From contig JALPXQ010000002.1 in NCBI GenBank assembly GCA_023271515.1, positions 1-42,837 of the forward strand: DNA of 42,837 bases, read 5' to 3'. Shown here in pieces: positions 8,497 through 28,887 of this stretch (positions within the stretch are counted from its first letter, which is position 1; every line of letters starts with the position of its first letter). The translations under genes and the position numbers were made by a program. The DNA comes from Dehalococcoidia bacterium. Its GTDB lineage: Bacteria > Chloroflexota > Dehalococcoidia > SZUA-161 > SpSt-899. Under the pieces are notes generated by a model. That model worked only from the letters and a program-made list of their open reading frames with translations, had not been told where the DNA came from and searched no databases.

Positions 8497-8660
8497 GGTA
8501 ACCGTTCACGGTTGTCGGTTCACAGTTCACAGTTTTTTCAATGAACTATGCAACGATTGAAGCATTTTGGATATTGATTTCAATAGAGGATCCCATGACT
8601 CTCCTTTGCCCTCTGTTTTTTCAACCGTGAACCGATAACTGTAAACCGTGAACGGTTACC
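8497..8660. repeat. Palindromic heptad-repeat element (two inverted period-7 arms)
   Basis: 17-bp perfect inverted repeat GGTAACCGTTCACGGTT (8497-8513) / AACCGTGAACGGTTACC (8644-8660); both arms continue as heptads. Confidence 0.9.
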
Positions 8661-11043: not shown

Positions 11044-11193
11044 TCCTAGCCTCCTGTTTCTAGAGTACTCTAAAGTATACAGCACTGTGCAGAGTTTGTC
11101 AAGCCCCCGACTGAACCCCTTAATTCGTGGATCAGACTTCAAGTCCAGGTTATAGTATCTGGCAAAAAACACTATGGGAAAATTGTTACTGTT

Positions 11194-11440
11194 CACCGCA
11201 GAGAGCGTCGAGAGCGCTGAGATTCTTGATATGTAGGCGTTCAGCGGTCAGCAATCAGTTCTGAGTTTGGAGTTACGGGTTTAGAGTTATGAGGTCCTCG
11301 GAACTCAATACTCTGAACTCACTCGGCTGACGGCTCAAGCTGATGCTTACGTCGTTCATCCGTAAGGTGCTGAACGCTGATGGCTGAACGCTTACCTTGA
11401 CATTAAGATTTCTCTGTGTTCTCTGCGTGCTCGGCGGTTA
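11194..11440. repeat. Nested palindrome: outer period-9 inverted arms, inner period-7 inverted arms
   Basis: Outer CGCAGAGAG|CGTCGAGAG|CGCTGAGAT vs reverse-strand CGCCGAGCA|CGCAGAGAA|CACAGAGAA; inner 11237-11394 runs in one heptad register. Confidence 0.88.
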
Positions 11441-11446
11441 TCGCTA

Positions 11447-12547
11447 TCACTGAACATAAAACCGCTTTAGCAGCCATAGCAGAATAAACCCTATAACCAA
11501 TAATACCCCGATGGTCTTATTCCCCAGAAATATCTTATTGCCATCCAACATAGGAATGGGAATCAGATTGAAACCACCAATGGAAAAGTTTGTCCAGAGC
11601 CCGACTGTGCCCAGCGCTTCCAGCCACCCCCTATCTCCCCAGTGTGTTAGACCTAGAAAGCAGAAGGCCAATACCAGGCTAACCACGGGGCCTGCAACAT
11701 AAATCAAGCCCATCTCTCTGAGGTTCTTATTATAGGGCCAATCCTTTTGCTTGATATAGGTTGAGCCATAGGTCGGATAATGGACACCAACCAATAAAGA
11801 GAATGGAGCACTGAAGAGCAGTCCCAATTCGTTAGCCTTGAATACCGTCTTAAGTCCAAAGAGGCGAGCAATGAGCTTATGGGCAAGTTCATGGGCGAAT
11901 ATGCTTATGCTGACAACACCCAAGGCAAAGGGGATGGAGGTGAGTACAGGTGCGTCATATCTAAGTCCAACAATCCAGGCGACAAAACTGAAGCCGAGCC
12001 AGGCGAGAAGGAAATGCCAGCGCTCCCCGATCTCTTCCACTAACTGGCCCTCGTTGACCGTCTTTCGCACTATAAAATGTCCTGGCGCAATGAAGTAGCT
12101 AACGATCCACCATAACGAAATGATCCTCCATCCGAAAACCTTAAATTGCCTATCGAATTCAAACGGCATGAAGCCCCTATGGAAGAACATATTCCACGAT
12201 GGGGAATTGTAGCGATCGATGAGGGCATAGAGCGTTTTGCAGCCTTCCTCTTGAAAATAGGAGAGGACGGCATCCAACAGGGCTTTGCCGGCCCCCTTGC
12301 CCTGAACGTTGCGGTCAACGAATATCCAATCGACCATGCCTATCCTTTCGCCGGCAATTCTGGCAACCCGTGGAACAACGCAGCCTACAACCCTCTCCCC
12401 ATCAACAGCAGCCAGCGCATTGGCCTTGCCCCTTTTGTAAGATAAATAGGCAAAATAACGCTCCGGGGCTCCCAGTGTTTTGGCAACTTCCGAGACCGCT
12501 CTGTCGTCATCCGGCTGGATTTTTCGTATAGTGATTGCCTGGTTCAT
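11447..12547 (-). CDS. GNAT acetyltransferase domain fused to M50 (site-2 protease-like) intramembrane metallopeptidase
   Basis: N-terminal VDWIFVDRNVQGKGAGKALLDAV (GNAT); C-terminal HELAH and NLIPIPMLDGNKI with TM segments. Start placed at MNQAITIRK. Confidence 0.85.
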   Translation of the reverse strand: MNQAITIRKIQPDDDRAVSEVAKTLGAPERYFAYLSYKRGKANALAAVDGERVVGCVVPRVARIAGERIGMVDWIFVDRNVQGKGAGKALLDAVLSYFQEEGCKTLYALIDRYNSPSWNMFFHRGFMPFEFDRQFKVFGWRIISLWWIVSYFIAPGHFIVRKTVNEGQLVEEIGERWHFLLAWLGFSFVAWIVGLRYDAPVLTSIPFALGVVSISIFAHELAHKLIARLFGLKTVFKANELGLLFSAPFSLLVGVHYPTYGSTYIKQKDWPYNKNLREMGLIYVAGPVVSLVLAFCFLGLTHWGDRGWLEALGTVGLWTNFSIGGFNLIPIPMLDGNKIFLGNKTIGVLLVIGFILLWLLKRFYVQ

Positions 12548-12691
12548 TAACTTCATGAGTAGCATAGCTTGTGCAAAAGCACAATCCCTACTATACTAAG
12601 TAAGAGCCAAGATCACAAGATCGGCACTTTGGGTGGCTAGTAATTGCCGGGGGAATTGTTAGAAAACATCCAATAGAAAGGAGTTACTCAG

Positions 12692-15411: not shown

Positions 15412-15600
15412 TGTACGGCTTCCCTTAATCTCCCGACAAAAGCTCGCAGTTTTGCCAGTGACGCATCCTCCTCTATCAGCTGTATAATGCGACTGCCCAC
15501 GATGATACCGTCGGCCACGCTGCTCACTCGCCTGGCCTGCTCCGGGGTCGATATCCCGAATCCCACGCACAGCGGCCGGCGAGTCCTCCGCCTGATATTT
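15412..15600 (-). pseudogene. C-terminal fragment of tryptophan synthase alpha (TrpA)
   Basis: Reverse-strand frame reads NIRRRTRRPLCVGFGISTPEQARRVSSVADGIIVGSRIIQLIEEDASLAKLRAFVGRLREAVQTN*; no alpha-subunit N-terminal two-thirds. Confidence 0.85.
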
Positions 15601-16679: not shown

Positions 16680-16988
16680 CCAAAAAAACCTCCGCCCCAA
16701 AGGGGCGGAGGTCAATCCGCGGTGCCACCCTTGTTGACCAACACGCTTACAGCATTGGCCATCTTATTCGGGTACGGCCTTCTAATTTGGCGATACCCTG
16801 GGCTCTGATAACGGTGCCCTCTCCGTCAAAGCCTACTCTCCCTGCGTGTCAGGGTTTCGGTTTGCAGCTCCCAGGTCCATTCTTCCTCTGCCTTAGCGCC
16901 GGGCTCTCACCTTGCCCCGGCTCTCTGTAGCTCGCCTCGAGGGGTACTACTCCTGTTCACAGCCTTTGGTGCGTTATTCAGTTGTGAG
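16680..16988 (-). promoter_or_regulatory. T-box leader (putative tRNA-Trp sensing)
   Basis: Reverse strand has AAGGGTGGCACCGCGG (16717-16732); leader contains GAAUGGACCUGGGAG with plausible UGG specifier. Confidence 0.92.
16682..16712 (-). terminator. Intrinsic terminator of the T-box leader
   Basis: ACCTCCGCCCCTTTGGGGCGGAGGTTTTTTT. Confidence 0.93.
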
Positions 16989-25385: not shown

Positions 25386-26206
25386 AAATCCTGGTATCCA
25401 ACGACGATGGTATCTATGCCAGGGGACTCTGGGCTCTGGTAAGGGCACTCAAAGGGGTGGGCGAAGTCATAGTGGTGGCTCCTGACCGCCAGCAGAGTGC
25501 GGTGGGAACCTCGGTTACCCTTCATTACCCACTGAGGGTCAAGAAGGCGAAATCCCCATTAAGCGGGGTAGAGGCCTATTCGGTCGAAGGAACACCGGCC
25601 GATAGCGTGATCCTGGGCTTGCAGATGCTGGCAAAGGACGATGTTGACCTGGTCATCTCCGGAATTAACGAAGGGCTGAATTTAGGCAACGATGTTTTCA
25701 TCTCCGGGACGGTCGGTGCTGCTCTTCAGGGATACTTCTACGATATTCCTGCCATTGCCATCTCCGCTGCCCTGGTAGAGAATAAGGTGCGGTTCGATAC
25801 CGCTGCCAGGATAGGAGCATTGCTGGCAAAGAAGGTTGAGCAGAAGGATTTGCTCCCCGGAATCCTCCTCAACGTAAACCTGCCCCACTTGCCCCTCAGG
25901 AAGATTCAGGGAATTGAGGCAACGAGGCTCGGCCGCAGAAGCTACCGGGATGACATCAAGAAGGGGAACGACGGCAGAAGGGACTATTATTGGATCGTGC
26001 GCAGCGAACCTGAACGGGGTGAGGAGAAGGGAACCGATATATGGGCCGTACGGCACGACAAGATCTCGATCACCATGCTTCGAGGCAACCTGGCCAATTC
26101 GAGCCGGATGAGTCACCTGGAAAGCTTGTGTTCCTCACTCTTTGCGGAACTTGGCTACGCAGGTTCAAAGTTCCGGGGTTCACGGTTCACAGTTCGCAGT
26201 CACTAG
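25382..26206 (+). CDS. surE: 5'/3'-nucleotidase SurE
   Basis: TTG start KILVSNDDGIYARGL; GTPADSV; SGINEGLNLGNDVFISGTVGAA; last ~14 residues encoded by a heptad repeat. Confidence 0.94.
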   Translation: MKILVSNDDGIYARGLWALVRALKGVGEVIVVAPDRQQSAVGTSVTLHYPLRVKKAKSPLSGVEAYSVEGTPADSVILGLQMLAKDDVDLVISGINEGLNLGNDVFISGTVGAALQGYFYDIPAIAISAALVENKVRFDTAARIGALLAKKVEQKDLLPGILLNVNLPHLPLRKIQGIEATRLGRRSYRDDIKKGNDGRRDYYWIVRSEPERGEEKGTDIWAVRHDKISITMLRGNLANSSRMSHLESLCSSLFAELGYAGSKFRGSRFTVRSH

Positions 26207-26260
26207 TCACTAGTCACCAGTCACTAGTCACCTTTCACTCAGCCCTCAGCCTTCAGCCTT
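26162..26260 (+). repeat. Heptad array passing through three heptad families
   Basis: GGTTCAA|AGTTCCG|g|GGTTCAC|GGTTCAC|AGTTCGC|AGTCACT|AGTCACT|AGTCACC|AGTCACT|AGTCACC|TTTCACT|CAGCCCT|CAGCCTT|CAGCCTT. Confidence 0.92.
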
Positions 26261-26307: not shown

Positions 26308-26380
26308 GGGGATATAGCTCAATTGGGAGAGCGCGGCGTTCGCATCGCCGAGGTTGGGGGTTCGAGTCCCCCTATCTCCA
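26308..26380 (+). tRNA. tRNA-Ala(CGC)
   Basis: Cloverleaf GGGGATA/TATCTCC acceptor with G3-U70, anticodon loop TTCGCAT, T arm GGGGGTTCGAGTCCCCC. Confidence 0.93.
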
Positions 26381-28483: not shown

Positions 28484-28578
28484 CCACAGAGCACACCGAG
28501 ATCACAGGGTTTATAGCGTGTAGCGCATAGCGGGTAGAGGATAGGGAGGCTACACCCTACCTGCTACCCCCTACACGC
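28484..28578. repeat. Period-9 segment followed by palindromic period-7 array
   Basis: CCACAGAGC|ACACCGAGA|TCACAGGGT (28484-28510); GCGTGTA|GCGCATA|GCGGGTA|GAGGATA|GGGAGGC|TACACCC|TACCTGC|TACCCCC|TACACGC (28516-28578). Confidence 0.92.
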
Positions 28579-28887
28579 TTATATCTGATGTATCCCCTGG
28601 ATTTCCAACTTGCTTCGGCCAAGTATTCCCTCAACCTTCAGCTCGTCGGCCCGCTCGAACCGAATACAGATGCCACAGTCCGAACTCAGATGCCGCGGCA
28701 CGGGAATCATCTTCAAAGGCACGCCTTCCGCCTTCAGCAGCTTCTCGGCGCGGAGCGCCCCGCTTATCGAGTGAAAGAGTACCACGCAGCGGCTCCCATA
28801 CTTATTGTTTTCTCTGTCCTTAGAGGCCAATGCCCTTACCCATACTGGCAATATTGCAGACTGCCCTGAGGACGATGTCTGCCTCAT
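28579..28887 (-). CDS. DUF3343-family small protein
   Basis: CVVLFHSISGALRAEKLLKAEGVPLKMIPVPRHLSSDCGICIRF; true start uncertain. Confidence 0.82.
   Translation of the reverse strand: MRQTSSSGQSAILPVWVRALASKDRENNKYGSRCVVLFHSISGALRAEKLLKAEGVPLKMIPVPRHLSSDCGICIRFERADELKVEGILGRSKLEIQGIHQI

Follow-up and report, generated by a model that had tools for sequence, protein, structure and literature searches.

Intervening sequences (IVSs) lie, in their classical position, inside the 23S rRNA gene, and their RNA is cut out by RNase III. They have long been regarded as selfish elements or transposon remnants with no clear parent. The IVS of Coxiella burnetii contains tandem GACAGAT heptamers in strain-variable number and a 28-bp terminal inverted repeat (PMC4990558). 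Geobacter metallireducens class 2 sites (three tandem TCTCCGTS[Y] units, forming inverted pairs whose spacing varies) and class 3 sites (five tandem MTYCTGA heptads) were proposed for a global DNA-bending regulator, with predicted IHF/HU binding (PMC2700814), and TAACTGA heptamer repeats were described in Beggiatoaceae (PMC4679880).

The DNA analyzed here (the window; 42,837 nucleotides) is contig 63 of its own assembly (1.35 Mb, 58% complete). C numbers denote contigs of this genome unless prefixed by G, L numbers denote retrieved loci, and G002, G003 and G004 are sister genomes. The feature under study is, with high probability, a set of three small mobile elements, hairpin-forming and now without their genes, nested one inside another: an outer shell of the GxxExxY kind (A), a shell of the PF05635 kind (B) and an innermost heptad hairpin (C). 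This mechanism comes from the present analysis; the preliminary description gave none. That description had placed inverted 9-nt-period arms on either side of the feature, where they were located again, and had put its extent at 11194-11440, which is real but slightly short of the full element (about 11185-11448). The features are listed below.

11185-11448, no strand: outer element A, probable ORF-less shell of GxxExxY type with 9-nt-period arms and 12-nt outer ends, containing B and C (the 9-mers and 12-nt ends resemble GxxExxY loci; A minus B aligns to the solo copy in C80)
11185-11196, plus strand: left outer end GTTACTGTTCAC; compare GTAAnnnTTCAC beside the 9-mers of GxxExxY elements
11197-11223, plus strand: left 9-nt-period arm, three units, CGCAGAGAG CGTCGAGAG CGCTGAGAT
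11225-11232, plus strand: CTTGATAT, left copy of the 8-bp direct repeat around B (7/8)
11233-11395, no strand: inner element B, 7-nt-period hairpin GTAGGCGTTCAGC...GCTGAACGCTTAC, probable ORF-less shell of PF05635 (23S IVP) type (inverted arms; heptads of L131)
About 11259-11326, no strand: innermost heptad hairpin C (TTCTGAGTTTGGAG...CTGAACTCACTCGG), probably inserted in B (standalone copies; 7-bp indel)
11396-11403, plus strand: CTTGACAT, right copy of the 8-bp direct repeat around B
11410-11436, minus strand: right 9-nt-period arm, three units, CGCCGAGCA CGCAGAGAA CACAGAGAA
11437-11448, minus strand: right outer end GATAGCGATAAC (minus-strand reading), overlapping the stop codon of the 11447-12565 gene
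28485-28511, plus strand: second 9-mer array of the window, one-armed, adjoining a heptad palindrome (GTGTAGC words, about 28515-28585)

A strict inverted-repeat alignment scan of 620 kb was uninformative and was replaced by folding and periodicity scans because the arms are too diverged. By RNA folding, 11185-11448 forms a single long branched hairpin with an outer stem and a multi-branch centre. The segment 11190-11445 folded at -119.7 kcal/mol (z -8.37 on the plus strand, -5.31 on the minus strand), with 0 of 200 dinucleotide shuffles as low, and DNA-parameter folding of the feature gave z -6.3. By both measures the segment at 11201 ranked first among 7,654 scanned (357 kb of the own genome, 263 kb of sister genomes). 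The heptad register described from 11237 to 11390 was recovered as 22 x 7, a whole number of sevens, with a lag-7 self-match of up to 0.62. The claim that two symmetrically nested periodicities exceed chance holds, folding and periodicity both lying beyond shuffled sequence and the block being conserved in sister genomes. At the centre the heptads do form a palindrome, as had been described, but two stacked ones (B and C) rather than a single one. The arms of B (11233-11258 and 11370-11395) are 81% complementary.

Inside B there is no ORF of at least 50 aa, and the window copy retains no remnant of an ORF. The feature has no Rfam match and the window no rRNA, and neither stem end is followed by the T-run of an intrinsic terminator. 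The neighboring genes encode a GNAT/M50 protein, a genus-restricted protein without a Pfam match and a winged-helix regulator; as had been stated, they do not account for the feature. Elsewhere in the window, a T-box leader was seen at 16698-16969 (minus strand), upstream of the minus-strand gene ending at 15524.

In a lag scan, period-7 islands numbered 21 across 357 kb of own sequence and 43 across 263 kb from sister genomes (shuffles, 0), densities that are upper estimates because the sampled contigs, about a quarter of the own genome, were partly picked for having hits. Only period 7 was enriched genome-wide; at other lags, 0-4 islands were found in the 357 kb of the own genome, except at the harmonic 14. 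The islands are built from many different words (GAGTCTG, GGTTCAC, GACTGGT, GTGTAGC, GCTGAAC), are often palindromic and are non-coding in 46 of 58 cases, mostly intergenic, although coding density is 87%. A further long heptad hairpin lies at 8497-8660 of the window; its inverted ends (GGTAACCGTTCACGG...) are perfect, and each end carries the 6-bp direct repeat AAATCA. At 26151-26260, just upstream of the tRNA gene at 26308, there are mixed arrays of heptads (GTTCACA, AGTCACT and TCAGCCT words).

The outer arms of the feature were found around one ORF in a 478-bp segment that is present in G002 and absent at C107. This ORF encodes a GxxExxY protein (TIGR04256, E 2.5e-47; PF13366, E 1e-45). 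The empty site (C107) reads GGAGCAGG-ATAACAACC; the filled site (G002, G004) reads GGAGCAGG, then the element (GCACCCGTTCACC...GGTGAAGGCTTAC), then GGAGAAGG-ATAACAACC. GGAGCAGG and GGAGAAGG together form an 8-bp target duplication, one position of which has since changed (7/8 now).

GxxExxY relatives were drawn from 54 loci (Chloroflexi, Desulfobacterales, Planctomycetes, Verrucomicrobia, Acidobacteria, Bacteroidetes, Gammaproteobacteria and Methanophagales archaea). Inverted CRCNGAG 9-mers were present on both sides at 35 of the 47 testable loci, against 0/47 and 2/47 in farther control regions; distant members have other 9-mers (CACGAAGGA, CACTAAGGA and others). The best flank period was 9 at 40/52 loci and at 17/27 in a second sample (family-model matches from Chloroflexota, picked regardless of arms), while control regions gave 9 in 21/86 and 7 in 5/86. 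Both arms are present around the Bacteroides plasmid copy beside radA. On a Sphingomonas parapaucimobilis plasmid (L308, 689-1117), a GxxExxY gene separates fabD from fabG, which it precedes by 3 bp; a 9-mer-like arm was seen on the left only. Residues H20, E29, D69, E79, K81 and Q93 are invariant in the GxxExxY alignment and make up an intact PD-(D/E)XK site. The predicted structure (pLDDT 94) gave weak fold matches, the best at E 0.004, to lambda exonuclease and nucleases of the Cas4 type, and a PDB sequence search with GxxExxY found no relative.

Element A has inverted tandem CRCNGAG-type 9-mers and TTCACC-like outer ends. The GxxExxY gene is absent between its arms, and none was found in the own assembly at 58% completeness. 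Intermediate and gene-free copies were identified: arms enclosing 56 codons of the ORF (L127, G003), a solo 9-mer hairpin retaining the ATG and about 13 codons (L134, G004), arms without an ORF (C110, C81) and a right arm alone where G004 carries the full element (C129). ORF-less copies arise by internal deletion, seen directly in these loci, and the window copy is the end point of this series of gene loss.

Around PF05635 genes, 9-mers were absent, and this led to the division into 7-nt and 9-nt arms. Inverted heptads (best flank lag 7) were found at 38/46 PF05635 loci of Chloroflexota and at 20/29 loci of other phyla (controls, 5/86). The arm periods are family-specific, because lag 7 was best at 2/52 GxxExxY loci and lag 9 at 1/46 PF05635 loci. 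Arms and genes thus form units across phyla, with period 9 accompanying GxxExxY and period 7 accompanying PF05635. At 6 of the 29 loci from other phyla (L241-L270) the best arm period was 8, not 7, possibly a third register. In both families, the two arms of a locus resemble each other more closely than they resemble arms from other loci (Wilcoxon p about 1e-8), which maintained hairpins would lead one to expect. At L131 (G011:C237) a PF05635 gene is surrounded by the heptads of the window itself (GTAAGCGTTCAG...GCTGAACGCTGATGGCTGA), and in the same genus a PF05635 gene with heptad arms lies inside a 23S rRNA gene (L139; RF02541). The tandem heptamers and terminal inverted repeat of the Coxiella IVS lend independent support (PMC4990558).

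The modules of the nest also occur alone: A, as a 9-mer hairpin, in C80, C81, C110 and C41; C in C32, C119 and C110; and B in C124, where its inverted ends are GTAAGCG and the 8-bp direct repeat AGTTTTTG is perfect (8/8) and sits at the same position as the repeat in the window. C69 carries A and B without C, and the window all three. Since A, A with B, and A with B and C all exist, and the modules stand alone elsewhere, the nest was built stepwise. Excision of B between CTTGATAT and CTTGACAT leaves a sequence alignable with the solo A of C80. The search for other composites of outer 9-mers and inner heptads, which had been proposed along with comparison of folding to dinucleotide shuffles, returned a two-armed copy (C69, 4931-5075) and two copies with a single 9-mer arm (C78, 2314-2420; window, 28485-28600). 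Nested copies elsewhere and significant folding, whose joint absence had been named as counting against the feature, were thus both found.

Insertion with an 8-bp duplication has occurred at least twice, at the C107 site and for B at C124. A direct-repeat signal 12-13 nt outside the 9-mers at 35 GxxExxY loci (0/200 permutations) lends weak support to target duplication. Exact repeats of at least 6 bp at the inverted ends were found at 6/49 GxxExxY loci, against 0-3 in mismatched pairs, which is barely more than background, and target duplications are not general; what holds is the positional signal and a few clear single loci. Outer element A has no target duplication in the window, and no empty site was found for its locus because the downstream neighbor (the 10474 gene) occurs only within the genus.

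The nested structure is also present in G002 and G004, and in G003 as far as the contig end. The 247 bp of 11194-11440 recur without a substitution in both G002 and G004 (L051, L052), where C is one 7-bp unit longer, whereas the genes flanking the element are 94-98% identical between genomes (2-6% divergent). At 5.5% divergence, the probability of no substitution in 247 bp is ~9e-7. Plain decay would not predict such identity between divergent flanks, which may reflect constraint, conversion or recombination; local recombination between co-occurring cells is a possible contributor because the adjoining 144 bp in G002 are identical as well. Beside the hairpin in G003 (L053, C317 of that genome), the promoter and start region upstream of the 10474-type gene contains a 94-bp tandem duplication.

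A very stable structure directly 3' of a stop codon, 247/247 identical in two sister genomes, is what an exapted RNA element might look like, either as a 3' hairpin that terminates or stabilizes the 11447-12565 message or as one that tunes the 10474 promoter. This reading is nonetheless unlikely, as the stem has no T-run after it, other copies have unrelated neighbors, and convergent gene pairs show no excess of heptad islands between them (9% of islands against 17% of intergenic sequence). A terminator reading was rejected on the same gene orientation.

It is very unlikely that the tandem 9-mers and heptads are paired recognition sites of a global DNA-bending regulator, as proposed in Geobacter metallireducens. 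The class 2/3 patterns of that species are very like the outer and inner arms (PMC2700814), and the block is strongly conserved in sister genomes, but the GxxExxY ORF, being present, truncated or lost, accounts for the variable spacer of the paired 9-mers, the heptad words vary from copy to copy, unlike an operator, and nested insertions would not be expected. A passive by-product of replication slippage and template switching at hairpins, with no mobile element, would fit the difference of one heptad between sister genomes, yet it is extremely improbable given the gene-specific periods of 7 and 9 across phyla, the presence and absence of elements between sisters and the dispersed, near-identical modules. 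Inverted chimeras are common in single-cell genomes, and the look of the sister genomes suggests single-cell assemblies, but an artefact of whole-genome amplification or assembly has a negligible chance of being correct and is refuted because three independent assemblies share the nested structure, plus a fourth cut by the contig end.

In the favored reading, a nest of three gene-free mobile elements, A would be the shell of an element that, when intact, has a single gene, coding for a GxxExxY protein with a PD-(D/E)XK nuclease site. The loop of A would hold B as an insert, a shell of the 23S rRNA intervening-sequence kind, the intact form of which carries PF05635, and C would be a further heptad hairpin inserted in B. 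The elements would move at the DNA level, following a staggered cut of the target, and self-folding, as in IVS RNA, may be what makes the inserts tolerable within transcripts. Insertion into hairpin loops may be favored: in the window and in C69 alike, B lies in the loop of A, and IVSs lie in rRNA loops. The window copy probably has no present function beyond that of a tolerated insert downstream of the 11447-12565 gene.

More tentatively, and going further than the comparisons above, GxxExxY elements might form a cross-domain class of minimal mobile elements (~480 bp, one PD-(D/E)XK gene, 9-nt-period arms) that move by their own nuclease, favor hairpin loops and parallel the IVS type, with GxxExxY reading 9-nt units and the four-helix protein PF05635 reading 7-nt units. 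In the literature searched on GxxExxY, PF13366, TIGR04256 and 7-nt or 9-nt repeats, no report linking GxxExxY genes to 9-nt arms was found, other publications possibly existing.

The tie between heptad arms and the PF05635 gene now extends far beyond rRNA. Bacteria and archaea also have a second, parallel class, in which the arms have a 9-nt period and the nuclease site of GxxExxY is invariant, and its protein family is almost absent from the literature searched. Such elements are a likely origin for many unexplained intergenic repeats, among them the Geobacter class 2/3 sites and the CACAGAG repeats in metagenome bins, and their mode of movement becomes a testable question.

With the 23S rRNA IVSs that carry the S23/IVP protein (PF05635), element B shares the hairpin, the long terminal inverted repeats with a stable stem and the tandem heptamers in the arm. 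Intact relatives carry one small ORF in the loop, whereas B is ORF-less, intergenic and nested in a second element. Having the structural features of an IVS but neither the 23S location nor the S23/IVP ORF, B is therefore IVS-like and not an IVS. The copy-number change of one heptamer has its counterpart in the Coxiella IVS, there between strains (PMC4990558). The outer arms of the window are of the same kind as those of GxxExxY (TIGR04256/PF13366) loci, a solo relative of which keeps the start of the ORF, but the window copy is without the GxxExxY gene.

Like MITEs, the elements are small, multicopy, non-coding and dispersed, have inverted ends and show nested insertion. Target duplications may be a further likeness: the repeat around B agrees at 7/8 positions in the window and at 8/8 in C124, and the window copy of A has none. 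The apparent parents here, however, encode a PD-(D/E)XK nuclease or a four-helix protein; no transposase parent with the same ends was found, and the same-end parents carry only the PD-(D/E)XK nuclease gene. An unrelated MITE of ~90 bp with GTAACAGGTAAGTTTTTCC ends was observed at 11174-11289 of L080 (C107) and 9964-10054 of L098 (C129 of G004); its presence differs between sister genomes, and duplications of 6-7 bp (AAAGGAG, ATATAG) accompany it.

Dispersed intergenic heptads are shared with the TAACTGA repeats of Beggiatoaceae (PMC4679880) and with cyanobacterial heptanucleotide STRRs, but those are mostly direct and of one fixed word, while the heptads here are inverted, degenerate and of many words. 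The Geobacter class 2/3 sites are alike in their triple tandem 9-mers in inverted pairs and in their tandem heptads. There they were read as IHF/HU sites, and here the same patterns are tied to element ends and genes; by analogy, the Geobacter sites look like the same two kinds of arm and may need to be reinterpreted.
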